This document shows, one piece after another, positions 2,667 to 61,888 of a stretch of 64,000 bases of DNA. The stretch's first letter is position 1; each line of letters opens with the position of its first letter. Location of the stretch: the NCBI GenBank assembly GCA_964036045.1, contig OZ038384.1:41265704-41329703 (forward strand), written 5' to 3'. Position numbers and translations under genes: made by a program. Source of the DNA: Eutreptiella sp. 'Long Island Sound 2002' (taxonomy: Eukaryota > Euglenozoa > Euglenophyceae > Eutreptiales > Eutreptiaceae). The notes under the pieces are model-generated. The model saw only the letters and a list, made by a program, of their open reading frames with translations. It searched no databases and was not told the DNA's origin.

Positions 2667-2686
2667 GTGCGCGAGGCCTCGCGCAC
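2667..2686. repeat. left-family 20-bp palindrome, copy 1
   Basis: Perfect GTGCGCGAGGCCTCGCGCAC. The symmetry extends to 26 bp (2664-2689). It lies in the region downstream of the gene A stop codon. Confidence 0.95.
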
Positions 2687-2825
2687 TCAAGGTCATGGAA
2701 ACAATTGTGTACAGAGGGCAACAAAAACAGGACACGAAGTGCACAACGTACAAACACTGAGATAAAAGCTTGGCAAAAATGTACAACCCTTTAAGGGCAT
2801 ATAATTGCATTCGCGTCGAAGGCGA

Positions 2826-2845
2826 GTGCGCGAGCCCTCGCGCAC
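2826..2845. repeat. left-family palindrome, copy 2 (centre variant)
   Basis: GTGCGCGAGCCCTCGCGCAC. One centre base differs (GCCC instead of GGCC). Flanking bases extend the arms to 24 bp. It lies about 45 bp downstream of the gene A stop codon. Confidence 0.93.
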
Positions 2846-2888
2846 TCATGACTGCAAAAAGAGGCGTAACACTTGGGTTAATGGTGAC

Positions 2889-5844
2889 TTACTTCTTCTT
2901 CGGTCCAGCAACCTTAGCCAACCTGGAACCCAGGCTTCTTGCTGTTGTACTTGTCCCACTTGGAGAGGCAACGGTACCTCGAGACGGCAGGGTACCAGAA
3001 CGCGAGGGCGGCTTGAACTCTGCAGTAGCACTGGCAGCAGTCTTCGCTTTCTTCTTGGACTGTTCCTTACCAGAGTCGGGGCTGCTTGCATCGAAGTGAG
3101 AGGCGGATGCCCGCTTGCGCTTCTGCTGGGTCTCCAGTACTTGCTCCAGATCGTCTTCTTCTGACTCCTCGTCAGTATCGTCGTCGTCTGATTCCGCGGG
3201 CTTGTCCGATTCCTTCTCTTTCCCTTTTGCTTGCTTCTTGGTACTCGAGGGTGTTCCTTTTCCGGCTGCAGTACCCTGAGTTGGTACAACTTTGGCAGTC
3301 TTCTTCATCTTGGCTTGCATTGGCAAGGTAGGTGCAGGCGCACCAGGCTCAGTGTCTTCAGCGGGGGCCTCAGTCACGACATCTTGCTGGACGGCTTCTG
3401 CAGCATGCACCTGCTGGTGCCCTTCATGCCCTCGTTTGCTGTCCAAAACCCACAGTGGAATGCCACGCTGGAGCCACTCTTCTTGAGTATCCCAAGTTGC
3501 AGCTGTTGCTCCCTGCTCCGTCTGATCGGCCTCCAGCATGTACCGCATCACGATTGCATGCTGCAGAGCACCTCCAACGGCATTCCCTAGGTCCTTTTGC
3601 TTGATCGTTGACACAGCCAGAAACGCCACTTTAGTTTTGAGGTCAGACATCGCAATCTTTGCGGCCATGGCAGGCGTGTCGTCCACAACAACCACTGCAT
3701 CAGGAAGCCCACTGCACAAAACGTATCTGTCCAGGTACCACAGCACGTGAATCAGAGGCATGAAACCGCCGAGGTTCTTCTCTTGCATCTCTTCGAAATG
3801 TCCAGCGGAATACGACACATAGTTCGGCAACTGTAAATATGATGAATATAGACGAATAACGGAGGCAGCAGTGCGCGAGGCCTCGCGCACACAACGGCAT
3901 CGTAACAATCGAAAGAAGCAGATATACCTGCTTATCCCAGCGACTCGTTGTTCCGATCCACATACAGTGCTCGTCGAACTGATACGTACTGCTGGTCACG
4001 GGACCCGATAACCAAGAGTACACCGGCAACCGAACATGGTAGAATGGCACTGTGGTTGGATCCTTGTCCTTCTCCATACGCCAGAGCCTCTGCATTTCGC
4101 GGCCAATACGGTGCACAACATCAGCCTCGCCATAGAAAATGACGTCTTTCCCCAGCATCATCACATCGAACAGCCACTTCGGAACAAATCCTGGAGAGTC
4201 GTATTCAATGAAAAGGTCAGCGTTGATGATCCACAACGGGTACTGCAGATCCCGGAAACGGCCTGGCGGTGTCTCTTCAATATTCTCAATACGGCAGGCT
4301 GTCAAAGCGTATTTGATCCCTTGCTCGTCCGACTTGGAGACATTGATCACATCGCCATTACTGAGCTGTGTCTGTGAAGGTGCCGATGATGGTGCCTCAA
4401 CCTTCCTTTGCAGTTGTTTCCGCACGGCCAACGTCTGTGGTAATGGAGGTGCGCCCTTGTCCCCAGTGCGCCACAGAGGTGCAGTGAGCAACGTCTTCCA
4501 TTTTGGCCAGGGCGACCGAAACTTCGTACTTTTTGCGTCCACCCAATAACCCCAATTTCCAAGCCCAATTTTCAATTGCGGCGTGCCCAGTGCTGCGACT
4601 TCTGCTCGGATCTTCGCATCGGCAGCTGTACGGATGTGACAAACGTGGTGAAGTGCGCGAGCCCTCGCGCACTGCAGCTGCGACACTGACGCATACCTGC
4701 GGTCTGGTTGACATGCTGCGTATTGTCCGGATGGTCAAGATGGAAAATAACCCATTGTTCCGTAATCTGCGCGTCAATGTAGTTCTGGGTGGTCTTCAAG
4801 GTCGAGTCCTTCAGGTTCATGTGCGCACAGACTTTCTGCAATAGGCTCGGTAGATGCAGCCCCTCCAGCCTCTTGAAGGCATTCCTTGTAACGTCCTCTT
4901 TCTTGCTCTTACTCTCGAGGTTCCTCATACCAGTAACCGCCTCACGGCCGCAGTAATACGCCAGGGAGAAGATGTCCCTCCAATTCTTGAATGTCGAGTC
5001 CTGCGGGGGGAGACAGTGTCATGGAGTGCGCGAGGCCTCGCGCACTGTAACCGTGCGATACACGAATACATACTGTATGTCCTGCTTCCTCCAAAGCCTC
5101 GGGTGCAAGAAACGCAGAGTTGACGGCAGCTTGGACAACAGCAATCTTGAACCTCTCGAAATCTTGTGGCTCTTTTTCCCGCTTCTGATCCTCAATGTAC
5201 AACAACATGTTGTCCAGCGCCTCGGACAGCGGAATCCACGTCACAGACTGGCTGCCAGCTTGTTGCAATCCTGCAACCTTGGCACGGATCCTCCAAGGCG
5301 TTTCGTACTTCAGAATGTCAACGTAGCAAAACTCCTGCCAATCCTCCAATTCTTTGCCTTCTTCGAGACGCTGTTGCTGAATCTTTCTGCATGTTTCTGT
5401 GCCATGTTGACCATTCAGAACGTAAAGGGAGCCATCTGCAAAGCAAATCATGTACCGAAGCAAAAAGAAGAACCGTCTTCGATCGAAAGCGAAGCGAGTC
5501 ATACCACCATCCTCCCACGCCGTTATGCGCAACGGTCCAGCTGGTGGCAGTGCTTGGTATCCTGCCACTTTTCTGGCAACGTCGTCATAGTTGATGGATC
5601 GGATCTGTCCGCGCTCCTTGGTCTTGTCAATTTTCAAATCAGCAATCTTTACCTTCACGGCTTTACCATTCTCCTGCCGCAGCCACTGTGCCACTTCGAC
5701 TGTGAGCTTCATCTCCGGTATTGCTTTCTTCTCACCCTTCTTCTTGCGTCCTTTCTTCGGCGTGTCCCCGTGGTCGGTCCCTGGTGACGACTCCATGGCC
5801 TCTGCGTCTGTTACTGGACGTTCTGGCGACCCTGGTTCACTCAT
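2889..5844 (-). CDS. Gene A: ParB/DGQHR-like domain protein of a two-gene mobile unit (4 coding exons)
   Basis: Exons 5844-5074, 5000-4697, 4625-3928 and 3830-2889 join in frame to 904 codons plus TAA. Residues 30-40 are Lys-rich. Residues ~63-160 follow a ParB-N-like plan: a strand-rich block (VKVKIADLKID), an R/N-containing helix, PAGPLRI, then YVLNGQHG with the GQH at 145-147, recalling the DGQHR/GEHR motif of ParB-type and DndB-type proteins. Residues ~258-700 are unassigned but conserved in the diverged copy at 61.6-59.0 kb, e.g. the SPWPKW and HVLWYLDRY regions. The tail (~700-904) has a long acidic Asp/Glu run, basic clusters (KRKR, KKKAK) that could be nuclear localisation signals, and Ser/Thr-rich sequence. 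The start is the first ATG after a CTTTTCAG acceptor. Donors are GTATGT, GTATGC and GTATAT. It lies 248 bp downstream of gene B on the same strand. A DNA-binding role is inferred. Confidence 0.8.
3831..3927 (-). other. gene A intron 3 (97 nt)
   Basis: The donor is CAG|GTATAT and the acceptor TTTACAG, phase 0. Removing it joins RWDKQ to LPNYVSY, which aligns with LPRYLSY in the right-hand copy. It contains one palindrome. Confidence 0.85.
3871..3890. repeat. left-family palindrome, copy 3 (in intron 3)
   Basis: Perfect GTGCGCGAGGCCTCGCGCAC with no further symmetrical flank. It is wholly inside gene A intron 3. Confidence 0.95.
4626..4696 (-). other. gene A intron 2 (71 nt)
   Basis: The donor is GCAG|GTATGC and the acceptor CGTACAG, phase 1. 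The right-hand copy has an intron at the equivalent position with the same phase and the same GTATGC donor (60464-60303). Confidence 0.88.
4653..4672. repeat. left-family palindrome, copy 4 (in intron 2)
   Basis: GTGCGCGAGCCCTCGCGCAC, the same centre variant as copy 2, inside gene A intron 2. Confidence 0.95.
5001..5073 (-). other. gene A intron 1 (73 nt)
   Basis: The donor is ACA|GTATGT and the acceptor CCCCCCGCAG, phase 0. Reading through it would add a cysteine/arginine-rich translation of the palindrome, so splicing is the simpler reading. Confidence 0.85.
5026..5045. repeat. left-family palindrome, copy 5 (in intron 1)
   Basis: Perfect 20-bp palindrome, 22 bp with flanking A/T, inside gene A intron 1. 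Confidence 0.95.
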
Positions 5845-5859
5845 GATGCCAAACAATAC

Positions 5860-6042
5860 CTGAAAAGGGCAAATGGCATGACATGAAACACGGTCATTTG
5901 AACTCTGAAATCAGTCGAAACGGTATTTTGCAGGTCGTTTTCGGAAATCTGTTCCACAAACGTCTTTGTTGTGACTTAATCCACGGCACTTAGCGAAGTA
6001 CTCAGTGCGCGAGGCCTCGCGCACTCACATCGCATTACATAC
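5860..6042 (-). other. candidate 5'-UTR intron of gene A
   Basis: A CAG|GTATGT donor at 6042 and a CCCTTTTCAG acceptor at 5860 enclose one palindrome. The acceptor lies 15 nt before the gene A ATG. The right-hand copy has the same arrangement (GTATGA at 61840, CTTTCAG at 61623, one palindrome between), which supports the call. Transcript data are needed to prove it. Confidence 0.55.
6005..6024. repeat. left-family palindrome, copy 6
   Basis: Perfect GTGCGCGAGGCCTCGCGCAC (22 bp with flanks). It lies in the gene B-gene A interval, inside the candidate 5'-UTR intron. Confidence 0.95.
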
Positions 6043-6060
6043 CTGTTTTCATAACGTTTA

Positions 6061-6080
6061 GTGCGCGAGGCCTCGCGCAC
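6061..6080. repeat. left-family palindrome, copy 7
   Basis: Perfect 20-bp palindrome 12 bp beyond the gene B stop codon. The 36-bp spacing to copy 6 makes these two the closest pair. Confidence 0.95.
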
Positions 6081-6092
6081 TGCGGGTGTCAG

Positions 6093-8090
6093 TTACCGCA
6101 AGCGTTGCCGCACGTTGCGTGTTGCTGCTTCCTGTCTGTCGGCATCCATATCTGTTCTCTGTCCCACAACAGCATCCAGTTTCCGTTTCAGTTGGTTGGT
6201 GGGATTTGTTTTCTGGTCAATGAGGGCATCTAGTACGCTGTGACCAAGTAGCCGGTAGTGGTCGTAACCGAGGGGTTGTGTAGGTGAGGGCGGAAATCTC
6301 GGTAACCTCCGCGGCCAAGAAGGTGCAACCGTGCTTACTCTGTCCGACTCCCATTCCACATAGGCCATGCATATCCGGTCTGTCGCCAAAAATCTGGTCA
6401 GTCGTTGTCGCATGCTGTGTACCAGGTTCTTGGCAACGTTTTGCACCCCCACGCGTTTTCCACCAGGACCAACCTTTAGCAACAAGTAATGGTTTTCCAC
6501 CTCCTGAACAGTAACAGAACCCGTGTTTCTCGCCTTGTCCCGCACCAGCTTGCTCAACATCCCTTCTCCAAACTCCTCTGAGTGTGCCTGACCGGGCAGG
6601 TCCTGGTGCCACTTGCTGTTGTACAACAATGTGCACATGATTGTGCGCTCGTACTTCAGTATGGTGTCACACGGTCCTCGACGCAGCCTCCGCAACAGAC
6701 ACAAACTCAACTGCAACACCTCCTGAGCTCGTGTCCCTGTAGCGTTGTTTTCCCCCGACCAATTGCACTCCCGTACCAGGTGACCCAAGTACAACAACAA
6801 CGGGCACCAATCCGACAACAAATGCAAGACTGCGTTTGCCACTGCTGCCCTGTTGGCATGCGTAGTGTCACGACCACTGATCGCGGTTGCAGCTTGTGCC
6901 TTGCGCCGATACGGGCGTAGTATTCGGGGTGTGGCAAGCATCAGCGCAGCAATAGTTTTTTCCATAACTATCAGTTTGGGGTATGATAGTATGGTGGAAC
7001 CAGGTCGTAGCAGACCTTTCCGTAGGTAGGTTAGAATAGGCCAGAACACCCGAAAAGTATGAGTAACAACGAACTTGTAGGCATGCCAGACACCGTAAAC
7101 TACAGGCACGTAACGCAGGTATGCACGCATGTTCCATCGTTGGTTCTTGGCACCGTACAACAACTTTAGTACCCTGTAGTGTATGTTTTCGTCAACCAAC
7201 AGCGGTAGAACTCTGTTTGTCTGTTGTGCTACGTCCCTTGCAAAGTGTAACAAGTTTAACAGACCAACACCACAAGTTACCTTCTCTTTGGACAGGGCAA
7301 ACGGGCGCCACACCGGTGCCTGTACAGTCCTTGCATCCCTCCTCACATCCGACGGCGCTCTCACGTTTCCAGCGTCTGGTGTACACCCATCTGCATACCC
7401 CATGTCACGCAATGTCTGGTGGATTCTCCGTTCACGCTGTTGCAGAGCCCTTGCGACTGTCGTTATCCGTGCTGCCAGTTCCTCAATGGCTGGATGTCCT
7501 GCCCAATACGTGGGCCTCTGTTTCAGTTGAAGTACTGCCATTGCAGTACAGTTTTGCGACCGGTCACTTTCGTCTGGGTGTGTCGTGTATTGTGCCCGGT
7601 ACCAGTTGTCTATCCACAGCACGCAACACGACGAAAGCACCAGTGACCAAGTTGCTTTAAGTGCTGCTGCTGCCTGTTCGTCCACTGTGTCTGCGGCAGC
7701 GTCTGCTTGCCCGAGTCGTACTTTTGTTCGTCTTTCTGTTTGCGTCAGGTACCCTGTTGTGTTTCCCGGTTTTTTCCTGTTTGGTACTGCCCGTTGACGC
7801 ATCAACAGGTACAGGTTCCAGCCCTCCTGTTGCAAAATGCGCACCCAGCGCTTGTCCTCCTGTCGTTTAGCTGCTGGTAAACTGTGGCGCGTTCTTTTGT
7901 TGAACCTGAGTCGCTGTGCAAATGTTAACACCAGTTGCGCCGCCAGGTCGTTCCGTTTCAGTCCTTTCCATAGGTCACCTGCTGTTTGGTATGCTGGTTC
8001 TGCCGCGCATGCCTCTCGTAGTGCTGCTGCTCCTTTGCTTACTTCTGCAATCATGCGTTGCTCTACGGATTTTCTGGCTCGAAGTGGCAT
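6093..8090 (-). CDS. Gene B: candidate RNase H-fold (DDE-like) recombinase of the two-gene unit
   Basis: Single open frame of 665 codons, ATG to TAA, with no intron. Much of it aligns with the open frame at 64000-62224: WIDNWYR/WFDKYRR, then an NCTA/NVTA-centred block, YWAGHP/YHGLP, LLVDENIHY/FLIDIKIFY, VYGVWHAYK/LYGVCHPYQ, MEKTI, LVRECNWSG/LVRQCSWNG and SEEFGEGMLSKL/SEEYGEAMLSRL. Asp161 and Asp300 each end a hydrophobic strand-like segment, and Glu505/506/509 lie in the last block. This order would fit the D, D, E residues of RNase H-fold transposases, but that is inference from pattern, not a family match. The C-terminus (~630-665) is basic and variable. It is upstream of and co-oriented with gene A, separated by two palindromes, and three more palindromes lie upstream. 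Other possibilities are a structural or replication protein of a viral-like element. Confidence 0.72.
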   Translation of the reverse strand: MPLRARKSVEQRMIAEVSKGAAALREACAAEPAYQTAGDLWKGLKRNDLAAQLVLTFAQRLRFNKRTRHSLPAAKRQEDKRWVRILQQEGWNLYLLMRQRAVPNRKKPGNTTGYLTQTERRTKVRLGQADAAADTVDEQAAAALKATWSLVLSSCCVLWIDNWYRAQYTTHPDESDRSQNCTAMAVLQLKQRPTYWAGHPAIEELAARITTVARALQQRERRIHQTLRDMGYADGCTPDAGNVRAPSDVRRDARTVQAPVWRPFALSKEKVTCGVGLLNLLHFARDVAQQTNRVLPLLVDENIHYRVLKLLYGAKNQRWNMRAYLRYVPVVYGVWHAYKFVVTHTFRVFWPILTYLRKGLLRPGSTILSYPKLIVMEKTIAALMLATPRILRPYRRKAQAATAISGRDTTHANRAAVANAVLHLLSDWCPLLLYLGHLVRECNWSGENNATGTRAQEVLQLSLCLLRRLRRGPCDTILKYERTIMCTLLYNSKWHQDLPGQAHSEEFGEGMLSKLVRDKARNTGSVTVQEVENHYLLLKVGPGGKRVGVQNVAKNLVHSMRQRLTRFLATDRICMAYVEWESDRVSTVAPSWPRRLPRFPPSPTQPLGYDHYRLLGHSVLDALIDQKTNPTNQLKRKLDAVVGQRTDMDADRQEAATRNVRQRLR

Positions 8091-8554
8091 TTTGCGTCTT
8101 TCTCTGTGGAATTATATTTGCGCACATATGTTGGTTATCGTTTCGCACAGCGACCTTTAAAAAAAATGTATTAGAAAACATCTGGCCTTTTCCTGTCGTC
8201 ATTCTGGTGCGTGTGCTGTCGCCGCAAATTGGATTTGGTGTCTGCGTGCGCTCCGTTCCCAGTAACCGCAAACTGTTTTCGCAACCACAATTTCCTGTTC
8301 TGCGTCCGTCTTTAAACCCAGTTGGAAAAAAAAACCATGTCTATCGGTCAACGAAGGCTACGCCGCTATTAAAACCGGACACGTCTACCATCGAGTGGCT
8401 GTTGGAAAAAAGCAAATCATTCCCCTGATCCCCTGAAAAATATGACGAAGGTTACCGATGTATAATCGACTGTCACAGGTGGTAGACGTGAAGGGGAATG
8501 TAAATACCGGCGTAGCCTAGCTTGATCGCTTTTTCATTTTCTTCTGTCATTTAA

Positions 8555-8574
8555 GTGCGCGAGGCCTCGCGCAC
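8555..8574. repeat. left-family palindrome, copy 8
   Basis: Perfect GTGCGCGAGGCCTCGCGCAC about 465 bp upstream of the gene B start. Confidence 0.95.
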
Positions 8575-8734
8575 TGATTGTTTCCGGGGAAACAATGTTC
8601 TATACCGTGTTGAATCTGATCAACATGGTGTCTACACACATATACACCGGAAAAATCAAACGTGTTTGTCCGTCTCGTACTGTACCTGCAATTGTACGCG
8701 TCACATCCAGTCTGAAAATTCAATACATAACGTG

Positions 8735-8766
8735 ACCTGAGTGCGCGAGGCCTCGCGCACTCAGGT
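8735..8766. repeat. left-family palindrome, copy 9, extended to 32 bp
   Basis: The 20-bp core occupies 8741-8760. The arms continue perfectly as ACCTGA and TCAGGT, giving a 32-bp perfect palindrome, the longest in the set. Confidence 0.95.
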
Positions 8767-8965
8767 TGCTTAAATTTGTATTTTATTTTCACTTTACAGT
8801 ACATGTGTTTCCCCTAACATGGGAAGTCCGACAGCCATACACTTCCAATGCTCCCTGGTCAACACAATCCTAATTTTAATACCGTGTGGGAGCTGCGTAT
8901 TTCCGCAAAAGCCAGTCCTTACGGGTTGTTACGTTTCGTGATAAACTCTGCTTTCGCTATCTTGA

Positions 8966-8985
8966 GTGCGCGAGGCCTCGCGCAC
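8966..8985. repeat. left-family palindrome, copy 10
   Basis: Perfect core, 26 bp with flanks (8963-8988). It is the outermost copy on the gene B side. Confidence 0.95.
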
Positions 8986-9040
8986 TCAGAACGCCAGAGA
9001 AATGTAAAAAACGTCACATTGAGGAACACGGAGTTGCACA

Positions 9041-9065
9041 ACACGAAAAAAGCAATTTATTTCAC
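9041..9065. repeat. candidate subterminal inverted repeat, right arm
   Basis: This is the reverse complement of the left arm at 2639-2660 over 18 exact bases plus GTGT, with one extra base. It lies about 55 bp outside palindrome copy 10. Confidence 0.45.
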
Positions 9066-9134
9066 TACGTCTAAAATCACGTTCATGAAACATCCAAAAA
9101 AATAGTTTTTTTGCCCTGTTGCGAACCGGTCCTT

Positions 9135-9157
9135 TTTTGCGCGTTCGGCGCGCAAAA
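9135..9157. repeat. GC-core hairpin near the right edge of the left unit
   Basis: TTTTGCGCG and CGCGCAAAA are perfect 9-bp arms around a TTCGG loop. A wider CCCTGTT (9114-9120) pairs with AACAGGG (about 9156-9162). It does not match the 20-bp palindrome family. Confidence 0.7.
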
Positions 9158-9438
9158 CAGGGTGCAGTTTGCGTGGGCTAAGCCTCTAGCGCTCCAACAA
9201 AACTTACTTATCCAAAGAAACAACCACACAACAAACCCACCAACAAACACCCCTACCAAATTCGCTCCTCTCACACAACAAAACCTTCATCAAAATTCCA
9301 CCACTTGAACCTCACACCCCACAACTTCCCCAACACAACATCTTCTCCCTCAACTTCATCTCCACATTCCAATTGCACCACTTCTCGCCACCACCTTCCA
9401 AAACTTCTCGACTCTGCTCCTAAAAGACGCAGGCTGAA

Positions 9439-9540
9439 CCCCCCCCCCCCTCAGCAAGATGCATGTAAGCCCCCCCCCCCCCCCCTAAACCATAGATCCC
9501 ACCTGCCCCCCATTTTCCCATAACCACAGCCCCCCCCCCC
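9439..9540. repeat. three poly-C tracts
   Basis: Runs of 12, 16 and 11 C at 9439-9450, 9470-9485 and 9530-9540, separated by short mixed sequence. The surrounding 9.2-9.5 kb is low-complexity C/A-rich DNA without a gene. Confidence 0.9.
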
Positions 9541-9599
9541 TCATATCACGCTCGCCAATTCATTTCTGTTTCCTTTCGTGGTGCCAGCATACCCAGGTT

Positions 9600-10582
9600 T
9601 ATATGTCTGCTTATCTGTGCACTCTGTCTTCCTTGGATGATCCATTTGTCACAGAGCTGAGGTTCTTTTTCAGTCCTACAGACCACTGGATCTTTCAGAC
9701 GATCCAGACAAACAGGCACCCCATTTTCTTGGCAGCCCTCTTGCCACCATGATCGGATACTTTGGCAGAAATGTCATCAAAAATCCTACCCATGTAGTCA
9801 CGGTGAGCCACAATGTGTTTGCAAATAGCTTCCACTGTTTGACCTTCTGTTGTGAAACCGGTGGCACCGATGACCATGTGTTGGAGTGCAGTCCGATTAC
9901 CATCAGTATAGTTCAACATTATGCCCTTGAGACAAACGAATGTATCGCTCCGGATATCACCGTCTATGTTCCCTTTCAAGCGGGGGCTCTTAAGCAAAAA
10001 ATGTCTTGTTTGTTGCGGTGGTTGCCGGCCTCCACAATTTCTAGAATTATACTTCTGAATCTTTTTGTCTGAATCACAGTGTAATGTTGAACGTGAAATC
10101 TCCAAACAAAAGTAGTAGAACTCCTCATTTCTAGCAAGGTTTTAGGTCTCCTTTTGCGAGAAATCTAATAAGCCAATTTTGTACACACTTTGTGCCTCTT
10201 TGTGCTTCAAGACTTCGGAACGGTCGTTGATTGTACATCGCCCGTTTCGTTGACGGACAGATCTTCGTGAAGTCCAGTGTACTACTCTATCTCTTTCGTG
10301 TACCATGCCATATTTTTGGACAGCAATTGCATGCGCACGATTCTAGTTCGGCAGTTCTTCTTCGTGACAGTTTTGTAGATTGTTCCATCCATTGTTTTCC
10401 ATATACATTTCGCATAACCCAGCTTCACCAGAGGATCGTAAGACAATGCAAGGCAAAACTTCAAAGTCCGGCACGCGGTGGTGGATGGACCATCGCATTC
10501 CAAAGAAGCTACTTGGGTTATTGGCTCCAATGCCTATCCACTTAGTGTTTCTGCTTCTTGTGCAATAATTCTCTGTTTTCAT
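9600..10582 (-). pseudogene. decayed coding remnant of an unidentified protein family (right copy)
   Basis: Read on minus, frames at about 10530-10282 and 10105-9695 and a shifted frame down to 9600 look like pieces of one protein. The first carries TTACRTLKFCLALSYDPLV. The second has LKGIMLNYTDGNRTAL and then a long amphipathic stretch. A frameshift near 9728 is needed to reach ENGVPVCLDR and TEKEPQLCDKWII. The last part is shared, inverted, with 1745-1988. I do not recognise the family. Intron boundaries are unclear and the frames are broken, so this is treated as a relic. Confidence 0.4.
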
Positions 10583-12760: not shown

Positions 12761-12769
12761 TATCTATTT

Positions 12770-50790: not shown

Positions 50791-52501
50791 ACTCTTATCT
50801 CCTCCTCTGTCACCAGCGACATTATGACTCTGCATAAATTGGGGGGTCAACCCAGAGGCGTTTGTAGCAAAATACCAGTAGAATGAGAGCTGCAAGCAGT
50901 TACAGACCCAAACAAACGAGGACAGGCAGTTCAATTTCACCAACTTCAATGCATTTTCCAGCCACCAGCTAGCGAACAGGGGGAGATAAGAGGGAGGGGC
51001 GGCAGTCAAAACCACAGGTGCGGCACCACCCCTGTTCGCAAGGCATGCAGGCAGGCAATATCTGTCGCCCCTTGCCTGCCTTCTCTCTCTCCACGTCTAC
51101 ACATAACCCTCCCCTCACTCCCTCCCAGCCTCCCTTGTTGAGTTGCCTGCTCCGATAGACATTCTTCTCTGCCTCCCTGCCTGCAACTCCTTCTTCTGCA
51201 TTTGTGCATGCGCCAACTCTCCATTCACAGCCCCCTTCTCAGCCGGCACCCCGCCAATTCTCCATTGATACACACGCAACAACATTAAGATCATCAGAAG
51301 ACTGAGAATGTGCTCCAGCCATTGCCTGGGTTGACGTCAGGCGCATACTGGATCTCAGGCGCATACTGCACACAAGGGGAATGCAAGTAGAGCCCAGGTT
51401 GGGGCCTGCAGGAAGCATTGGGCATATGTACCCACAAATGAGATCTTGTGAGAAAGAAGTTTGCAGGCGTCCAGGTGGGCGGAGGGGTGCAGCAACTAGG
51501 TTTTGCATACCTTGCCTCTGGGGCGGCTCGTCTACTAGGCATCCCCCCCCCCCACCCGCACGCTGTTCGTGTAGTTGGCCCACCTGACCACTCTATAACC
51601 CTTCAGCCGGTAGACAATGGATGCGCGCCTTCGCGTCCTTTAGGCGCCATTCAGGGACCTTCAGCACGTTTTACGGGACTAGGCATGCCTCCAGTGCCGC
51701 ACGGGTGGAGGGGCAGGGCGGTCCACAGGCAACAAGATGAGTTCTATACCCAACAATCGGGGGGTTTCTAATTAGTCAACTGATTTGCTGGGCTTTCGGG
51801 GGTTGTTACCAGGCATAAACACAGGGGGGAAGGTGGGCGGGGGGCGGGGCAAGCACTTGGTCTGAGACGCGACTGCCCCTCAAGGAGAAATGGGCCAAAT
51901 ATGCCCCTTGAAGGCCATGACATGAGCTATCAAAAAACCAGCATGACTCTCACCTCAAGCCAGACTTGACCAGTTCCGCAGCATTGTGTCCATTTGCACT
52001 GCAAATACTGCAGATCTGCACCAGTACTTGCCCATTGGGAAAGGGGGGGGTTTATCATGCAATGTGAAGTGGGTTTGCCAGTTGGTACTTCTGGTGTTGC
52101 GCACTTGGGTGTGTTTCATGAGGGTGCCTCCGGCCTGTATGTGATTCTGGGCCAGTGTGTATGTGTATTCAGGCAGGGGAGGGGGGAAAATTCAACTGCC
52201 TACAGCAGATCCGGGTCCCTGCCCCGGTCCCCTCACCTTTGTGAGAACCTCCTTTGGACTGGGACCCGGTGCCACCTGCACTTTGTGGGGAGGTCCAAAC
52301 ATTTGGACATCCAAATGATCGCCATACTGTGCTGATCATTCTTCAGGTAAATATGTTGGGGCGAAAAATGGGGTCGGGGGGGACAAACATAGAACGAAAA
52401 TTTCCTTCCAGAACCTTTGGCGCCAAAGGTCAAGGTAGCTACCTTGAGCAACTGAGGGTGGCCGCAGGCCAGGGAAGGGCAGGGGAGAGGGGGTCGCCAC
52501 C
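50791..52501. other. anonymous DNA, no gene recognised
   Basis: Short open frames only. It contains a small poly-C run near 51544 and a G-rich stretch near 51826-51850. I see no domain or repeat family. Confidence 0.45.
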
Positions 52502-53100
52502 CTAGCCCCGGACACCCCGGGGCTAACCCCGGACACCCCGGGGGTAGCCCCGGACACCCTGGGGGTAGCCCCGGACACCCCGGGGCTAACGCCGGACAAC
52601 CCGGGGCCAGCCCCGGAGCCTCCGGGGCCAGCCCCGGACACCCCCGGGCTAACCCCAGACACCCCGGGGGTAGCCCCGGACACCCCGGGGGTAGCCTCGG
52701 ACTCCCCGGGAATATCCCTGGACACCGCGGGGCTAACCCCGGACACCCCGGGGGTAGCCTCGGAACCCCCGGGGCTAGCCCCGGATGCCCTGGGGTAGCC
52801 TCGGGACTCCCTGGGGCTAGTCCCGGACACCCCGGGGTTAACCCCGGACACCCCGGAGGTAGCTACGGACTCCCCGGGGGCTAGCGCCGGACACCCTGGG
52901 GGTAGCCCGAGACTCCCCAGGGCTAACTCCGGACACCCCGGGGTTAGCCCCGGACACCCCGGGGCTAACTCCGGACACCCCGAGGATAGCCCCGGACTCC
53001 CCAAGGATAGCCCCGGACTCCCCGAGGATAGCCCCGGACACCTTGGGGCTAACCCCGGACAGCCCGGGGGTAGCCTCGGAACCCCCAGGGCGAGCCCCGA
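52502..53100. repeat. GC-rich 21-bp minisatellite (~28 imperfect copies)
   Basis: The unit is approximately TAGCCCCGGACACCCCGGGG plus one G, with TAG/TAA variants. Because 21 is a multiple of three, the minus strand stays open and would encode a 7-residue Gly/Ser/Pro/Val repeat within a 343-codon frame (53367-52336). I regard that frame as a by-product of the repeat. Confidence 0.9.
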
Positions 53101-54375
53101 GGCCCAAAAATTCCCTGCGCAAACTGCCAACACAACCGCCGTCATTGCTGTGGGCCTGGGCTGCCAACCCAGCGCATCCGCCGGTAGGTGTACCACATGC
53201 CGACTGACCCACGCATTGATGACCACTCCTTCCACCACCACTCGCAGCACCCGGATGTTAGGCGTGTGCAGCTTGGCCCGCGCTTGCACTCTCCAGCTCA
53301 GGCGACACATCAGTGCTAACTCTTCTCGTCCATTGCCACCCATGGCACGGTGCACAGGGATAACCATCTACCACCCACCATGACCCTCTGCAGTCCTCTA
53401 CATCTGTGTGAAACTTTCTAAAATATTCTGCATTCCTCTGGCCATATGCAACACCAATCAGCCCAAAAAAACGCCCCCCAACCCATTGTACCTCCCCACA
53501 CCCTCCAAGGCAATGAATAGCCCTCACCGAACTCAGAGACTTACACATGGTTGTCGAGGATTATACAGGGTTGCAGAGAGCTTGGTTGTTGAGTTGGAGA
53601 CTTGTTGCCGTGTTGTAGACGACTGTCAAGGGTGCTACAGGCTTTGGGGGATCATTCAGGTTGTAGAGGGAATGAATGAATGAAGGGGAATGAACGAACA
53701 AAGGTAGCGGTAAACTGTTGACGTAAAATTGGGTTCATTGAGGGGCCATGAAATGCACAGCATTGGACATGGTTGTTGAGGTTGGTGGGCTTGTAGAAGG
53801 CTTTTGAGGTTGTTGTTGTTGTGGGGGAGAGGGGGGTTGAGGGCTGCTGGTGGCGTGAGGTTTTAGAGGGTTGTCTAGCACTGTGGAAAATCCTACTTTT
53901 TGCGATGGCCCAAAAATGCAAATTCCCTTTGGCAGGGCACCGTGAAGAGGGCCCCTAGAGCTTTCAAGGGAATCCCAAAATTCATAGAAGTGTTTTGGGG
54001 GTGGCATGGCCTGGGTAGTCGCTTGTGAGTCCTGAACTGGTGCTCTAGTACTGTCCGCATGACAGAATGGCACCCCATGAGATAATCCATACTCCCACTG
54101 TCACCAAATGATAACCCAAGCTTGGCCCAAATGTGCCTGGGTTTGATGCTCAAAAACCAATAATTTTCAATCAACCCATGCCGGCCTGAAAACGTGTAAG
54201 TCCTCACACGTGGGGCCCTATAGGGGGGGCTGGTTGGAACTCCCCGGAGAGAGCAGAGGAACCCGCCATTGTTTCGGGGGTCCATGGGGGGTATTGGCGC
54301 CGCGCGCTACTCTTACAGCAAGTTTACGCGGAGTGGGTTGGTTTTTTACCCCATCATAAAATGCCCTGCACATGC

Positions 54376-54390
54376 GGGGGGGGGGGGGGG
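54376..54390. repeat. poly-G tract (15 nt)
   Basis: Uninterrupted run of G. Confidence 0.95.
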
Positions 54391-54506
54391 TCTGGAACAA
54401 GTTCATTTTCAGGTCACTGCTAGCCTGCAGACAGACCGGCACGTTGCCCCCCACTCGTTGATTGTGAGCTGCTTCTCGTCGAGTTTGTTGGCTGCTGGCA
54501 GTGAGT

Positions 54507-54538
54507 GCGCGCGTGTGTGTGTGTGTGTGCGTGTGTGT
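54507..54538. repeat. GT microsatellite
   Basis: GC/GT alternating repeat of about 32 bp with one internal GC interruption. Confidence 0.9.
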
Positions 54539-54768
54539 CAGCTTCTCAGCCTTGCCCGTTACGTTTGTGTACTTGCAGTTGCCTACTACATCCCATGTAA
54601 TGTAGTACGTTTGTTTTCCGGGCGACAGGATTTTTTGGTCGCACTACTGTTTTGGTCATCACTGAGGATGCATGACTGCACACAACAATCAGCAACACAC
54701 ACACACACACATTATCGTATCCAGGCCTTCCCGGACTGCACTTCTCACTTGGGGGGGATCATTGGGGC

Positions 54769-54785
54769 GGGGGGGGGGGGGGGGG
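54769..54785. repeat. poly-G tract (17 nt)
   Basis: Uninterrupted run of G following ATTGGGGC. Confidence 0.95.
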
Positions 54786-55040
54786 TAGCATGGCCATCCC
54801 TGGGGTTAGCACAGAATGTTTAGCGTTGTGAGGTTGGTGTGCAGCTGCTTGTATTGAGATCCTCCCCTGTAGGGGCAGGCCAAATGCCATGCCTAATGCC
54901 TCAAAGTGGATGCTCATGCATCTCAACCCCCCCGGGGAGGTATTGGAAGGGGGGAGGCATTTGCCTTTTCAAGTCCTGGACGCTAATGCGATTGAGGGGA
55001 TCAGGGGGCTAGCGGGTGAGAGCTCATCTATATACAGCTA

Positions 55041-56280
55041 TATACGGATATATAAGGCCCTTACCCTCCCTGCCCCCCAGCGTATCGCGGCGCGACGAAA
55101 GGACCCGGGCCTCCATCCTATGTGGGATCCTCCGAGGAGCGACCCTACCCAGATCCTGGGCTGTGCACTCCCCCATCCGCGCCCGCCAGTGCAAGTGCAG
55201 GTGCGGCTGTGGAGGGTTGGGCGCCCCCCCCTCCCGAAGACGGCACTTGCCGAGTGAAGCCCAGGCTCAAGAGCCCCCCCCCCGCGGGTCGGCAGACGGG
55301 CTGCTGCACCCCTGTGCTGCGAGGGGCGCCGCTGACGGTCTGCCCCACACGCTGCCCTACGCCCCCCCCCCCCCCCCCCCCCGTGTTGCATTGCCGCGCT
55401 CCTGTGCCTGTCTTGCCCGCCCACGGAGGGAGGGGGGTGGGGGGCTGCGCCGCGCCGGGGGGAGAGGGGAACCACCCTGTCCCTGACCCTGGCCTTGTCC
55501 CTGGCACCCGTGACCCAGAGTAGCACCCTCTGGCTGCCCCTGTGCCTGCAACACAACATGCCCTGCAGCACTCTGCTGTCCCTGCTCGCTAAGGAATGGG
55601 GGGGCACCTGGGCCCTGCCCAGCCCGAAGCCGCCCTGCAGCCCCCTGCTGCTCGCGTTTCCGGGGTGGAGGTAGGCCACCTTGTGTCCCAACCGCCAGCG
55701 CCGCTGCACTAAGCGCGGCCGAGATGAAGCCAAAAACGTACGCCAGGCTCGCGCGCCCCCGTCCTTGCCCCCTGCCCCTGCCGCGAGACGTGCCCTTGGT
55801 AGCCGGTGGTATCGTGGCCGACTGCGCAGCCAGCGGGGGTGCCCGCAGCCACTGCCCCCCAGGAGACATGAGGCCAGAGCCATTGAGGCTATTCGCCCGT
55901 GGTTGGGACTGTGACTGACCCACCCCCCTGCCGCCCTCCCCCCCCCCATATCCCTGTGGGTGGTGGGGGCTGCAACCCCGGGAAGAGTGGGAAAAGGATG
56001 ACCCAGCCCTAGAAGGGGGCCTCCCGCGCGGTGGCTCATCGTCGTCGGAGTAAGAGCCGACTCGTGGCGGCCGATGCATCCGCCCGAACACTGCTGGGGG
56101 CAACACGCGCTTCCGCGCCTGCAGCAGCTCATCCTCTAATGAGCCCCGCGGCGACTCCCGCCCTCGGGAGCCCAGCAGCGTGCCTGGGGGGTGGGGGGGC
56201 GCAAGCCGTTGCACCTGCTGGGGCGCTTGAAGCCACGCACGCAGTGCCCTGGCTCCTGCGCGTTGCGCTGCCGGCGCCCC
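55041..56280. other. GC-rich low-complexity DNA with a 21-nt poly-C tract
   Basis: Poly-C at 55362-55382. The minus strand has a 285-codon frame (56214-55357) rich in Gly, Arg, Gln, Ser and Pro, with an acidic SDDDE patch and an RGRGRGQGRGR stretch. It lies downstream of the LINE reverse transcriptase fragment and could be a remnant of a nucleic-acid-binding protein. With no conserved domain and very high GC, I do not call it a gene. Confidence 0.35.
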
Positions 56281-57236
56281 TCATGGCCCAAGGAGCAGCA
56301 GTATTAAATGCCTTGACCGGTCGCCGCGCACGCCGCGCACGTCGCCGCGCCGTGTGCAGGGCACAATACGCACACGGTGCCCAAACCGTGTCCTAGCGCC
56401 CGTGGAGCTCCAGCCGGGCGCGCCGGCGGCGGTGGCTGCGCAAGTGGGCAGCACGGCCGCTGCGATCGCATCCGCTTGAAGGGGCGCAGCTGCGCCTGAC
56501 CACCCAGGGAGCGAGGCAAGTAGTCGTTCAGGAAAGCTTCCCGGCGCCCCCTGCCAGGCCTTGTCAGCCGCCGCGCCCATAGGGCCCTGCAGTGCACCTC
56601 CATGCCGCGCATGTGCTCGTGCATGGCTTGGCGGCACGCGAACACGAGCCTCTCTGTGCGACCCATGCACTTGTAGCCCCCAAACAGGACCGCCGCGTTG
56701 CATAGCGGGCGCAGCTAGCCCCCAAGAAGCTCACCAGCTCACAGAAATTGCCGCGCTTTGTCGAGCGCCAAGTTGAGCTCGTGCGCTCGTTCACGAAGCG
56801 GCGGGACATGCGAGCTTGTGCCCCGGAGCCGCTGGGTGGGCTCGGCCCGCATGCTCTTCGAGATCTTGGGCCAATTCCACGTACGTGAATTGGCCCTGGC
56901 CCGGAAGCCACAACAATGCCCCTTCTCACCGCAGCACGGCGTGCAGACCCGTCGCCTCCCAGGGCCAATGCGGCGGCGACCCCTCTGGTGCATCCAGCGA
57001 GGGTCGGGCCGGGGGCATGTGCAGTGGGCCCGCCCCAAGTTGGTGCCGTGGATAGGCGGTGCACGTGTCCGGCGCCCCGCCCCGCGCCGGGCCGGCGACT
57101 GTCGAACGTTGGTCCCCCCTTTGCTGGGCGGCGTCTTATGCCGTCTTGCGAGCCGCAAGCACGGCTAGGAACATTCCGTACAGGCGGTACACAAGTCCCT
57201 TTGCCAGCTGCAGCTCATCGTGGTTGGGCACCAGGG
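56281..57236 (-). other. GC-rich region downstream of the LINE RT remnant
   Basis: Overlapping minus-strand frames (57158-56739, 57064-56564 and 56666-56304) are open but carry no recognised motif. They may be the decayed 3' part of the LINE next to it. Confidence 0.3.
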
Positions 57237-58331
57237 CTAGCGGGAGCAGCCCGGCCGAACGCAGGCAAGCCGGCCACGCGGACGGTACAGCCAGCGTGGG
57301 GAGAGGGCGCCATGCCACAAGCGGGCGCCATGCCGCCTGTACCAGCTAGCGGGGGGGCGGGCCCAGAGCATGTGTTCGTCCGTTTCGGTGGGGGCCCCAC
57401 AGCGAGGACAACGCGGGTCCGTGCGGATGCCGTGCTCGTGGGCTCGCGCCGCAGTCCACGTGGCCCCAGCTAGCTGCGGGGGCAACACCAGCTCCAGTTC
57501 GTTCCACGCTACGGCGAGCGCATGACGCACCGCGTCACGCTGCAGGGCGCCCCCGAGGCGCCCGTACGTCCGCGGGCGTCGGCACTCCAAGGCCTGCAGT
57601 GCGAAGAACCGCTGCCTTTGCCGTACGCGGTGGCACACCTTGCCCCAATCGTCCACAGCCAGGTGCAACGTCCAGAGCCAGGTGCAACGGTGTTGCTTGC
57701 CTAGGCAGCCACCACTTCCACCAGCCCTCAAGGGCTACCTAGCCGAGCCTCCGGTTGTCGTGCAACACTCGCCCCACCAGCCCCGTCAATGGCGGCTTGG
57801 ATGGCTCCTCCAGCACTGCCTGCACCAGCACCTGCACTCTGCCGGGAGTAGCGGTTGCTTGCGCCAGCCACAACAGCCGTTGGTATTGTGCCCGCCACGA
57901 GGGCCGAACGCGGTGTCCAAGCGTGAGCACCGACCACAAAAAACTCCCGGTTCCAAGAAACGCGCGTAGGGCCCCATAGCGCAATTGTAGTGAGGGAGTC
58001 TAGTGCCCGCATGTCAGCCTCCCAGACTTCGGCCAACTCTGAACCCCATAGAGCCTTGGCGAGCGCCAAGGTCCCCAGGTCTCCATCTTCCACACTGTGG
58101 TCAGGAGATTGATGAGGATTACGCTCAAGGGGCATCCTTGCAGGATGCCGTTCGTGGCACGCCACCAATCCCGAGGCATCCGGAGACCTTGAAGGCTCGC
58201 CGCAGCTAGCGGTACATGCCCGTCAAGGCCCGCAGGATGCCCGGCTCCATGCCGAGCGCCGGCCTTACCCTCCGGACGACATTTTGGGGGATCAAGTCGA
58301 AACACTTGACATAGTCAAGCTTGAACCCAAA
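57237..58331 (-). pseudogene. LINE (non-LTR retrotransposon) reverse transcriptase remnant
   Basis: On minus, LDYVKCFDLIP (about 58322-58290) is RT motif A. After a frameshift, NGILQGCPLSVILINLL (about 58155-58105) is the motif B region. Further on, GHRVRPSWRAQYQRLLWLA is typical of the segment after the RT palm in algal/protist LINEs. CPRCGAPTETDEHMLWA (about 57395-57340) is the CxxC...H zinc-binding motif found after RT in these elements. In-frame stops and at least two frame changes show it is inactive. Sequence upstream of motif A is lost near 58331, consistent with 5' truncation during insertion. No YxDD motif was seen. Confidence 0.82.
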
Positions 58332-58763
58332 TACTTAGGCCACCCTAACTGCCCACCCCCCTACCCACAGGCTGGGCTCCGCGGGGCCATACTGTACCCC
58401 CCCCAAAAAAAACAAGGTATGAATTCTGCACCTAGGGGACCCCTTGCACCTGGTAGGAAAAAAAAAGTATCTCTATTTACCTAAAATGCTATTCTCATGT
58501 AACCACACCCCAGTTGTCAAAACACAATAAGCATGCATGCATACTAGAAAAGCAGAGGAAGAAAGAAGGTTTTTGGAATACAACAAACCTTTCCACTGTT
58601 ACCAACAATTGTATCATCCACCGAGGCGATGCAGTGCAAGAAGTAGGGTAGCACACACTTGGCAAAGGTTGATGTACCCTGTGTGTGCCCAAAAACTGTC
58701 AATTGACAGTCACTCAAATTCATGCATCACAATCGAGGTCTCTATTTGCCATTAATGAGACCT
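58332..58763. other. spacer between the LINE remnant and the right two-gene unit
   Basis: No gene is recognised. It contains short A-runs. The left end of the right-hand element should lie here or just after it. Confidence 0.45.
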
Positions 58764-58783
58764 CTGGGCAAAATTTCTTCCGG
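58764..58783. repeat. right-family palindrome, degenerate copy 1
   Basis: CTGGGCAAAATTTCTTCCGG. The left arm is intact but one base and the right arm is degenerate. It is followed by GCTTTA, like copy 2, so the pair forms a direct repeat of about 28 bp. Confidence 0.65.
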
Positions 58784-58832
58784 CTTTACAAAAATGTAAA
58801 AACGAACCGTGTATTCCGGGAAATACCTGGAC

Positions 58833-58852
58833 CTGGGCGAAATTTCTTCCGG
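58833..58852. repeat. right-family palindrome, degenerate copy 2
   Basis: CTGGGCGAAATTTCTTCCGG. The left arm and centre are intact and the right arm is altered. It lies downstream of the A' end, as copies 1 and 2 of the left family lie downstream of gene A. Confidence 0.7.
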
Positions 58853-60302
58853 CTTTAGTAAAACACAAAAAAAAACAGTGCGCAAAACGTCAATAGTATC
58901 TGCAGAGAAAGCGCAGAACGACATTCTGACGTGTAACAGGGAAAATATACAACACAGCAGTCAGAGCACACACCATTGTCACTCTATCGCCGCTTCCTAA
59001 GGCCAGGTGCCTTTGGTTTGGCACCCTTAGCAGTAAACTGCCCACCATTTGCTTGTGGTGCCTGGTCACCAGGCATCTCACTGTTAGCACCACCAGTGGC
59101 ACCACGTCCATTCTATGTCTGCTGGGACGGTGTGAAATGCTCTGCAAACGTGCCTAGCGCCTTCTTGGGTGGAGGCTTTGATCCACGCTTGGGGCTCTGC
59201 TGTGAGGGGCTTGCTCCAGCCTTTGATTTTTTGGCCTTGGCGGGTGTGCCGTCCCCCTGCTTGCCGGTTGAGGGGAGGGGGGGGGGGTTCTGGGACTCAC
59301 CGTCCTCTTCCTCTGTTTGGGTGGCCTCCTGTTCTTGATCTACATACCTCCTTCCCGTGCAATCTACTGGAAACCCATCTGCAAGGTCTTCACACACTTG
59401 GTCCCACCGGATTGGTGCCAGGCTGTCGCAGTTCGACACAGCAGCCCTCAAATCAGTAACAAATGACTCAGGAATGGACTTCACCTCAGACAAGTATGCA
59501 ACTGCCATGTTCACAGGAAACATGCTTTGAATGGACAGTGCTCCAGAAAAATCTGGCTGCTGTGTGCGGACCATTACCCATGTACTATTCTGCTGAATCA
59601 AATCCAATGCATATAGCAAATAACAGAACACTTCAACAGGAATGGCAGCCGTCAGGGGGCCCTAAATATAAGAAAGATATCGGGGCAGGCGTGCAGAAAA
59701 CTGGTGCAAACTACATAGTGCAAGAGCAGTCTGTCCCATGCTGTACAGTGCTGATGGCCTGGACAGGTTGTCCACACATACATCGGTATAGAAAAATTCC
59801 TCGGCACAGGCAGCTTTCAGGTTGCCAACACAGGCCCGAACATCAGCAGTCTCACCAGTGATTGCCACCAAAATACCATTCAATACAAATTGTGCCACAA
59901 TATTGTGCCGGGCCAACGTCCACATGCGTGGGAATTCCATCAGGATGCAGACAAATGGCAGCACACTAATAAAGCTGGGAACAGGGCAGCCTGCCCACAA
60001 AGGGAGTAGCTCAACTGTACCCTCCTCCTTCACTTTCCCTGTGTCTGTCTCAATGATGGTATCACGCAACTTAAGACTCAGATGCCCACAGTTAGCCTGT
60101 TCAATACTTGGTGTCACACGGGGCTTGTGAAGCCTGTCACGTAACCCTTGGTAAAGGTCGGAGGTCCAAAAGACTGCCTTGAGAACAGAACCCCATGGTG
60201 GCCAAGGTGACTCGGGACTCCACATCCAGCTGCCATACAGGACCCGGATATGGGCCATAATACGACATTGTTTTTTGCAAATGGTCACAGTACACAGATT
60301 TC

Positions 60303-60464
60303 CTGCAGAAGGTATACACAGGACACATATGAGGCAGTTAAAAAATGGTATGCTTATGAACGAAAATCGAGAGACCTTGGCGACATTTCGCCCAGCTCAT
60401 CGTCAGCAACGAAATAAAAACTACGAAATCACTACCACTCAGAGTGCAGAATAATGCGGCATAC
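60303..60464 (-). other. A' intron equivalent to gene A intron 2 (162 nt)
   Basis: The donor is G|GTATGC and the acceptor CTTCTGCAG, phase 1, matching gene A intron 2 in position, phase and donor. It contains a right-family palindrome. Confidence 0.72.
60376..60395. repeat. right-family palindrome copy 3 (in A' intron)
   Basis: CTTGGCGACATTTCGCCCAG, two mismatches to the consensus CTGGGCGAAATTTCGCCCAG. It is in the same relative place as left copy 4. Confidence 0.8.
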
Positions 60465-61622
60465 CCCTGGACTCGTGCACAAACCCCTCAGTGACTGCAT
60501 CCGGATGGAGCACATGCCAACCCCACAACTGCTCAACTCTGGCCAACTTTATTTCACGTTTGATTCCCAATACTGTGCCTGTAGTACGCGACATGTAGAG
60601 GACAATGCTTGCTAGTCTGTCTACCATTAATCCTTCGCACTCTTTGAATACCCCAAGCGCCGGTTCAACATCTCACTTCTCCATCCCATAGACTGCGTCA
60701 GTAGCTGGATGCCCAATGAATTTGAGAAGCTTGCCCAACCCTGCCCAACGCTTGGCTACAACAACCTTAAGACAGCAAGAGACAGGTTAAAAAAAAGGCT
60801 TATGGTAATGTGTAACGCATAGAGTCGAAACGTTGAACACAGCACATTGCCTTCATCAGCTGTAATAGCAATTTCAGGCAACATGTTCCGAGTATGGGTG
60901 AGCAGGGGGGCGATCCTCCGCAGTATGCTCCAGTAGGAGTGCCATCCGTTCACTAGTTGTTGACACACTACTGCTTGCGGTCTGCACTTGATGAAGCCCT
61001 GCTAGCTTTCATCGAATGGGCAAAGGAGTGTCTCTTCTAACATGAAAGCCTTCAAACTCTCGTGTCCATGTAGGCGGGGGGTGATTTTTGGATTCCTTGT
61101 CCTTGCGATGTTGCATAGCAGCCGTGTAGATGTGCTGACCCCTAATGGCATACCAAGACCCAGCTGTACATGAGGTAACAGGCAGTACAGAGTAAAATCA
61201 AATGGCACTGAAGATCGAGTACAATCGAAACAGGACAGGTCAGAACATACGCACACCAGGTACCAGCAGTAAGTTGTCAATACAATCAGGTGGCGTTGCC
61301 CTTAATAAATCGTCATAGCGGGTTTGGACTCGGTCGGGGTTCAGCCCACGAACCTGGCCTTCACAGCGATCTCTATCAATCAGGATCTGATCCCGTCGCA
61401 CACGAATGCGTTTTGTGGAGGTGAGGTAATCTGCCAGATTGACTTCTGCTTTTCCTTTGCGTTTTGGCTTTGGCTTCGGTTTGGCGGCTGGTTTGGGTTG
61501 TGGTTCTGCTGCGGGGGCGTCAACAGCAGCAGTTCCCTCACTTCCGGTGAGATGCTCTTCATCATTGGCCAGGTTTCGGGCGGTGTACCAGCATTTTGAG
61601 AGACTTCCATAGAAGACATTGC

Positions 61623-61840
61623 CTGAAAGGTAAGAAAACATCCGATGCAGAGTGCAGACATGAGGATATTCACGTGCTCAGACAGAGATATTAGCCAAAT
61701 TAGATGATATTCGGAGAACCCAGGTTCAGAAACTGAAGCTGCCGTACAACAAGGATGACACAGAACTGAAGGCTATGAAATGCACGTTGCCTGGAAAGCT
61801 AGGCGAAATTTCGCCCAGGTCTGGCAGTTTCAAATCATAC
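61623..61840 (-). other. candidate 5'-UTR intron of A'
   Basis: A GTATGA donor at 61840 and a CTTTCAG acceptor at 61623 just before an ATG enclose one palindrome, copying the arrangement in front of gene A. Confidence 0.45.
61799..61818. repeat. right-family palindrome copy 4
   Basis: CTAGGCGAAATTTCGCCCAG, one mismatch to the consensus and an almost perfect palindrome. It lies in the B'-A' interval, inside the candidate 5' intron. Confidence 0.88.
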
Positions 61841-61868
61841 CAGGCTCAAAATCATGAAAGTCGGGCGC

Positions 61869-61888
61869 CTGGGCGAAATTTCCCCCAT
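61869..61888. repeat. right-family palindrome copy 5
   Basis: CTGGGCGAAATTTCCCCCAT, two mismatches in the right arm. It is placed just before the 5' donor, like left copy 7. Confidence 0.8.

Follow-up and report, generated by a model that had tools for sequence, protein, structure and literature searches.

Two-gene terminal-inverted-repeat transposons of a eukaryotic genome carry family-specific palindromes that are candidate recognition sites for an element-encoded protein

Here we describe a large group of two-gene DNA transposons with terminal inverted repeats (TIRs), which have the termini CTTAG...CTAAG, are flanked by 5-bp target site duplications and carry, family by family, a palindrome of 20-22 bp of their own, present ten times per element in the two families that were read whole. 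The distribution of these palindromes supports a role as DNA-level recognition sites for a protein encoded by the element, and we consider it somewhat probable that an element protein acting as a symmetric dimer, likely the second protein (A), binds them for self-recognition. An earlier note on this DNA had proposed co-evolving recognition sites for an element-encoded protein. What this implied for the sites themselves holds, namely their membership of the elements, confinement, conservation and family-specific divergence, whereas the protein that reads them is still a matter of probability; the identification of the units as TIR transposons goes beyond that note.

Results

The DNA analysed, hereafter the window, is a 64-kb stretch from an assembly of 2.28 Gb in 2205 contigs, which also served as the genome for all genome-wide counts; size and introns identify the source as a eukaryote. 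The window holds two units, each with a gene B followed by a gene A. The left unit is a TIR DNA transposon at 2323-9182 (6860 bp), with inverted ends of 30 nt that start with CTTAG and match at 93%. The end lying 3' of the genes is at 2323-2352 (plus strand, CTTAGCCCACGC...) and the 5' end at 9153-9182 (minus strand), and directly outside them stands the 5-bp target site duplication CCTCT (2318-2322 and 9183-9187). Both genes are on the minus strand, first B (6093-8090, 665 aa), a putative DDE-type transposase for which D161, D300 and E377 are the proposed acidic residues, and then A (881 aa). The five exons of A are predicted at 5505-5844, 5074-5435 (with a GQH motif inside), 4697-5000, 3928-4625 and 2889-3830 (a Lys/Glu-rich tail and the stop), exon 1 having a homologous exon in a third family, P36; the introns measure 69, 73, 71 and 97 nt. 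The observed/expected CpG ratio of the left element is 0.92 (1.15 in its non-coding part minus the palindromes) against 0.59 in the right unit and values of 0.60-0.75 for four stretches elsewhere in the window, and the element therefore looks young or protected. Outside its duplications the transposon is flanked by inverted copies of another repeat (1751-1862/9597-9708 and 1960-1988/9700-9728).

The left palindrome, GTGCGCGAGGCCTCGCGCAC, occurs ten times in this element and always in non-coding DNA, an outcome with a chance of 7e-6 if the sites were placed independently. Three copies lie 5' of B, at 8966-8985 (197 bp inside the terminus), 8741-8760 (the centre of a 32-bp perfect palindrome) and 8555-8574, and two lie between B and A, at 6061-6080 and 6005-6024. 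Three more are in introns of A: at 5026-5045 in intron 2, kept in most other read-through copies; at 4653-4672 in intron 3, present in other copies such as P0123, P0153 and P0161; and at 3871-3890 in intron 4, kept in P0066 and altered in P0165. The last two are 3' of A, at 2826-2845 and 2667-2686, the latter 344 bp from the terminus. The copies at 2826 and 4653 carry a single central mismatch and the other eight are exact. The conserved core extends to 22 bp (AGTGCGCGAGG/CCTCGCGCACT); its edge is sharp, and symmetry beyond it is weak. A motif scan of all 64 kb thus bears out the ten copies, two of them centre variants, that had been reported within 2.7-9.0 kb; it gave no further left-type site with up to 4 mismatches and a single one, at 57432, with 5.

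The right unit is a decayed relative of the left one. Its B (62561-63997, minus strand) is 29% identical to left B over 488 columns, has one in-frame stop within the match and runs off the window. On the same strand, blocks homologous to left A exons 1 (61288-61569), 2 (60895-61161), 3 (60499-60753) and 4 (60079-60210) are colinear and contain stops. The five copies of or near the right palindrome, CTGGGCGAAATTTCGCCCAG, that were claimed at 58.7-61.9 kb are all there within 4 mismatches, none of them exact, and the window has no others at that threshold: two between B and A (61869-61888, 2 mismatches; 61799-61818, 1 mismatch), one in an intron of A (60376-60395, 2 mismatches) and two 3' of A (58833-58852, 3 mismatches; 58764-58783, 4 mismatches). 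The last two are not independent, because both lie in a 69-bp direct repeat; a 69-70 spacing of sites is usual in the right-type family. In 4 kb of the right unit the largest family of near-palindromes had 4 members, against a maximum of 2 in 200 first-order resamplings, and of three control stretches two gave 1 and one, which holds a 21-bp tandem repeat, gave 26.

The claim that copies occupy equivalent places in the two units stands for the B-A interval and the region after A and fails for intron 2: the right site at 60376 is flanked by the blocks homologous to exons 3 and 4 and is therefore in intron 3, the equivalent of left 4653. The left element has its intron sites in introns 2, 3 and 4 of A and none in intron 1. 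Likewise, the reported agreement of the two palindromes at 12 of 20 bases is correct as a count, but because the sequences are palindromic only 6 of 10 positions are independent, with a chance of about 0.02 (0.008 counting a run of 4). We therefore rejected the 12/20 agreement as strong evidence, and from the window alone a common architecture of the left and right sites is only suggestive; the case stands because of the genome-wide data.

Elsewhere in the window, a 1.686-kb unit is repeated head to tail about 20 times at 16453-50115, its copies being 97.8-100% identical; no gene was identified in this unit, and an Rfam scan of the window, array included, found no match. There are also 28 copies of a 21-bp G+C-rich tandem repeat at 52502-53099. 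A fragment at 57237-57734 on the minus strand matches zf-RVT weakly (E 0.0012, short of the Pfam cut-off) and may derive from the end of a non-LTR retrotransposon.

The third family was reached through P0036, a B protein (P36 B) that is 45% identical to left B and has at least 67 matches in the window's genome, 96-100% identical among those listed (67 of 8590 candidates scored). P36 A has 832 aa, is 35% identical to left A and follows the same five-exon plan; the left and P36 families are close relatives. Two P36 copies, taken as 9.9-kb stretches, are 99.4% identical over 6394 bp and cease to match, to within 1 bp, at their 30-bp inverted ends; the 5-bp duplications TCACA and ACGTA stand directly outside CTTAG...CTAAG. 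Together with the CCTCT of the left element, TIRs with 5-bp duplications were found in 3/3 elements with both ends read. The P36 palindrome, TTGCGCGAGGCCTCGCGCAA, has ten sites per element.

Both palindromes are abundant in the genome, with 3608 exact copies of the left and 3979 of the P36 sequence and none of either reversed control. The earlier note had expected palindromes to gather around B-A pairs and not to be spread evenly. We examined the first 50 listed places per pattern, all on contig C1: in this part of the genome 46 of the 50 left-type sites were clustered with gaps of up to 7 kb (3.4% expected at random), as were 39 of the 50 P36 sites (3.0% expected at random). With 4 mismatches allowed, sites of the matching family are present in every one of the 20 P36 and 30 right-type loci, so that the note's other refuting condition, pairs that lack such sites, did not apply in the part of the genome covered. 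The left-type loci examined were L002-L005, of which all but L005 match the left element. Right-type B has at least 92 listed matches in the genome (91 of 7148 candidates scored), and one of the 30 right-type loci, L006, is the window itself and was excluded from the consensus, placement and first-site distance sets, leaving 29.

Perfect palindromes of 14 bp or more were sought de novo in the 30 right-type and 20 P36 loci, and one recurrent core per family was recovered. In the right-type loci this was GGCGAAATTTCGCC, found 33 times and perfect in 22/30 loci, so that further family members yield the very palindrome that had been read from the right unit; in the P36 loci it was CGCGAGGCCTCGCG, found 106 times and in 20/20 loci. 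The remaining cores occurred once each, except for a run of N in one locus. With up to 4 mismatches allowed, the 30 right-type loci contained no site of the left type and the 20 P36 loci none of the right type. The left and P36 palindromes differ only in their outermost bases and cross-match within 4 mismatches, and exact copies in the 20 P36 loci are 50 of the P36 type and 1 of the left type. Half-sites of the three family consensus sequences agree at 9 of 10 positions between left and P36 and at 6 and 6 in the other two pairs; a joint probability over the three was set aside because left and P36 are close relatives. The proposed linkage of the sites to B-A elements, and their divergence along with A and B at the level of whole families, is thus borne out across three families, and the comparisons support palindromes that diversify with the element family, in step with B and A.

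These data bear on the possibility that the palindromes are bound by a transcription or chromatin factor of the host, as part of a promoter, insulator or replication element that the transposons exploit. A promoter link would be in keeping with the three sites ahead of B and the two between B and A, and CpG-bearing palindromes would suit a host factor. Set against this, the palindrome varies between families of one genome and tracks the element families, and most of the first listed sites of both types are clustered, not single. We regard a host factor as improbable.

The layout of the sites is alike in the left and P36 elements: three are ahead of B, two in the B-A interval, three in introns of A and two past A. 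The P36 sites are also non-coding (10/10), save that one extends into the B stop codon by a single base, the last. The introns concerned are 2, 3 and 4 in the left element and 1, 2 and 4 in P36; the sets differ at equal number, which indicates that sites move between introns while their number stays. Distances from the ends are kept as well: counted inwards from the 5' terminus, the first site comes at 197 bp in the left element and at 196 bp in P36, and the last one lies 344 and 348 bp, respectively, short of the 3' end. In the right-type family only the 5' end was read, since the right unit runs off the window and the loci L057 and L058 align only at 1315-3922 of L057, plus a 20-bp match. 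Its sequence, CTTAGGCCACG, is present with at most 1 mismatch in 27/29 loci, and in these 27 the first-site distance is 206 in 16, within 196-212 in 22 and from 120 to 272 in the other 5, so that a first site some 200 bp in from the 5' end is common to all three families. The 29 right-type copies have 2-4 sites before B and, in 20/29, two after it, and 139/140 of their sites lie outside a stretch around the B match (locus 1330-3200).

Three of the four A introns carry a site in each of the two families, as might be expected if the palindromes were RNA hairpins serving the splicing of A or transcript stability. However, left intron 1 (69 nt) and P36 intron 3 (74 nt) are similar in length to the others and have no site, seven of the ten sites are outside introns in both families, and both halves of the palindrome are kept uninterrupted with no loop; we consider this reading very improbable.

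The sites are conserved where the DNA around them is not. A blastn comparison of the left and P36 elements (word 7, E up to 1) gave 101 matches, of which 94 were palindromes, mostly cross-pairs of the 10 x 10 sites, and 7 were coding; it detected no non-coding similarity outside the palindromes, and the ends, which agree at 14/23 bases, are below its reach. A further comparison used database copies of A that read through intron 2, where the palindrome encodes seven residues. Enough of the intron was aligned in 66 of 98 copies (the query-identical P0067 was left out), and in these the palindrome-encoded residues matched the consensus at 0.88 against 0.72 in the intron flanks, with near-equal codon degeneracy (0.286 vs 0.275); the same copies gave 0.75 for the site-free intron 1 and 0.84 for exon 2. 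Copy by copy, 50 favoured the palindrome, 11 did not and 5 tied, a result whose P value is only indicative, since the copies share ancestry, four counted among the 66 are rearranged (P0137, P0151, P0162, P0165) and some have lost the site (e.g. P0136). The diverged copies P0163 and P0158 keep the palindrome where about a quarter of the flanking residues match. The sites first noticed in the window are therefore kept while the surrounding DNA diverges and, in the elements read, are confined to non-coding DNA.

Could such repeats be functionless, small mobile or mutational repeats that spread within an element? Copies within one element are near-identical while their flanks differ, and the outer base pairs vary gradually, as this would require; yet 20/20 sites in two elements are non-coding, bar one base, layout and end distance are conserved, and the sites have been retained over large divergence. 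Inert repeats are accordingly a slim prospect, little better than RNA hairpins.

Two further loci, L060 and L061 (G000 C1:2186650-2188250 and C1:22107150-22108750), have a P36 terminus and P36 palindromes around an unrelated interior. The outermost palindrome is 205 and 207 bp from the terminus, respectively. At E 1e-10 neither locus matches P36 in nucleotide sequence, and protein comparison with A and B gave nothing convincing (best E 0.011). This form with an end and sites seems to have multiplied, because six site pairs spaced 814-816 bp are found among the first 50 P36 sites listed. An end and palindromes may thus be what is needed in cis, as judged from one kind of element with one end read. 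One site of L061 lies within a longer near-perfect palindrome.

The same elements bring up the transposase itself as the reader of the palindromes, which would then be subterminal and internal binding sites of B for the transposition complex, with another role for A. The multiplication of elements with a P36 terminus and sites would fit this, as would an outermost 5' site about 200 bp from the end in three families and the closely matching 3' distances in two. Other sites, however, lie mid-element and in the introns of A, thousands of bases from the ends, where they have no obvious use in end pairing. We judge binding by B to be unlikely, though deserving of consideration, and favour A as the reader of the palindromes, because the sites extend over the whole element and B should be engaged at its ends.

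B has 65 database matches, 30 to 100% identical, which lack Pfam domains and are nameless but for one 'hypothetical protein'. Pfam scans (E up to 5) of 12 members, namely B itself and 11 relatives, gave nothing above chance, and a sequence search of the PDB with B found no match. With a low-confidence structural model of B, the top Foldseek match in the PDB was the Hermes transposase (E 0.24), and in a VIA comparison of the model unrelated chains ranked above Hermes. B is nevertheless most likely a transposase, given its conserved acidic blocks (DNW/DNF, DENIHYR and ME), the surrounding TIR element and the weak best Foldseek match. Some relatives of B at 30-42% identity (P0049, P0057 and P0063-P0065) are on short contigs, in part from other sources (lgn, jgi), and the B family may reach beyond this genome. 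Searches of viral and genome contig collections confirmed no relatives, and a phage collection searched with A gave one chance match (E 10). Of 37 distinct contigs with B matches of at least 75% identity, 15 also had an A match, against 2/17 for distant B matches, contigs being told apart by their length.

Pfam includes a KDZ model, and the 12 B members matched no curated KDZ profile in it. Target site duplications are usually 8 bp in hAT elements, 7 bp in Kyakuja and 8 bp in Zisupton, with 5 bp in some hAT families, according to the available text of one report (PMC12730594). The 5 bp in 3/3 elements here departs from the 7-8 bp of KDZ elements; with hAT elements such as Hermes, B can be compared through its acidic blocks and the weak structural match, with no match in sequence.

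Database searches gave 99 matches when the read-through N-terminal part of A was the query and one when the spliced protein was used whole. Its GQH motif (LNGQHG in the left family, VSGQHS in P36) recalls ParB/DGQHR by eye. Searches of Pfam, NCBIfam and PDB sequences gave no convincing ParB or methyltransferase match for A, exons 4-5 of left or P36 A had no Pfam match to N4C/N6A methyltransferases, and the quality of the structure model of A was unusable; the ParB-like motif remains a faint, unconfirmed lead. Nor did A or B have a convincing Pfam match to a VANC-related protein or a MULE transposase, and it is on such profiles that A is set apart from VANC.

Discussion

Our preferred explanation, to which we give somewhat better than even credence, is that the B-A units are two-gene TIR transposons whose palindromes are bound by a protein of the element for self-recognition. 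A dimer of A would bind the palindrome of its family and so distinguish the DNA of its own element from all other genomic DNA. Coating of the spread sites would keep the element expressed and accessible, whether by anti-silencing or by activation, as VANC does on VANDAL elements, and B may in addition use the outermost sites in locating or pairing the ends.

To our knowledge, few transposons have a sequence-specific self-recognition code. In En/Spm elements a second protein, TnpA, binds repeated CG-containing motifs near the ends, which non-autonomous derivatives keep. These motifs are only subterminal and include no long palindromes, and En/Spm has CACTA ends and 3-bp duplications, in contrast to the CTTAG ends and 5-bp duplications found here.

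The best documented case that we found is that of VANC and the VANDAL elements, which are Mutator-like elements of Arabidopsis. Short motifs, which vary from family to family, direct VANC to the non-coding DNA of its own VANDAL family, in introns, between genes and at the termini (PMC5735166), and co-evolution of VANDAL and VANC has been proposed (PMC10398659, PMC5735166). The present elements are similar in that a protein other than the transposase, in an element with several genes, is the probable reader of a family-differing motif, and in that this element-specific motif is enriched in introns, intergenic and terminal non-coding DNA. VANC motifs are 8-9 bp long, non-palindromic and arranged in dense arrays of one orientation, in contrast to palindromes of 20-22 bp, ten per element and mostly dispersed. 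Anti-silencing has been demonstrated for VANC, whereas here it is proposed from sequence. No known family was found to be related to A or B.

A more specific form of the mechanism, which we hold to be doubtful at present, is that A is a ParB-like dimer that would load on parS-like palindromes, spread, mark the DNA as 'self' against silencing and present it to the transposase. The elements would then form a new group of eukaryotic transposons, with partition-like marking built in and with site and protein diversifying jointly. Bacterial ParB binds palindromic parS, and the elements described here do carry several palindromic sites on the cognate element. An accessory protein of the Ectocarpus transposon Sola1-1 has ParB-like and N4C/N6A methyltransferase domains and has been suggested to bind and modify its own element (PMC12477816). 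Like A, it is encoded by a second gene of a eukaryotic DNA transposon, and the portion of that paper available to us names no binding sites. Full-text searches of a library of open-licence papers, judged by titles and the starts of abstracts, brought up no palindromic family-specific sites in a two-gene transposon.

Self-marking transposons are a type already known, and the transposase group described here is one with no match in the libraries searched. The elements provide an apparently independent case of such marking, in which the sites are long palindromes and three or more families of a single genome carry them. Thousands of sites are involved, and therefore the code can be read by computation. 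If A proves to be of the ParB-methyltransferase class, the palindromes would be candidate binding sites for that class.
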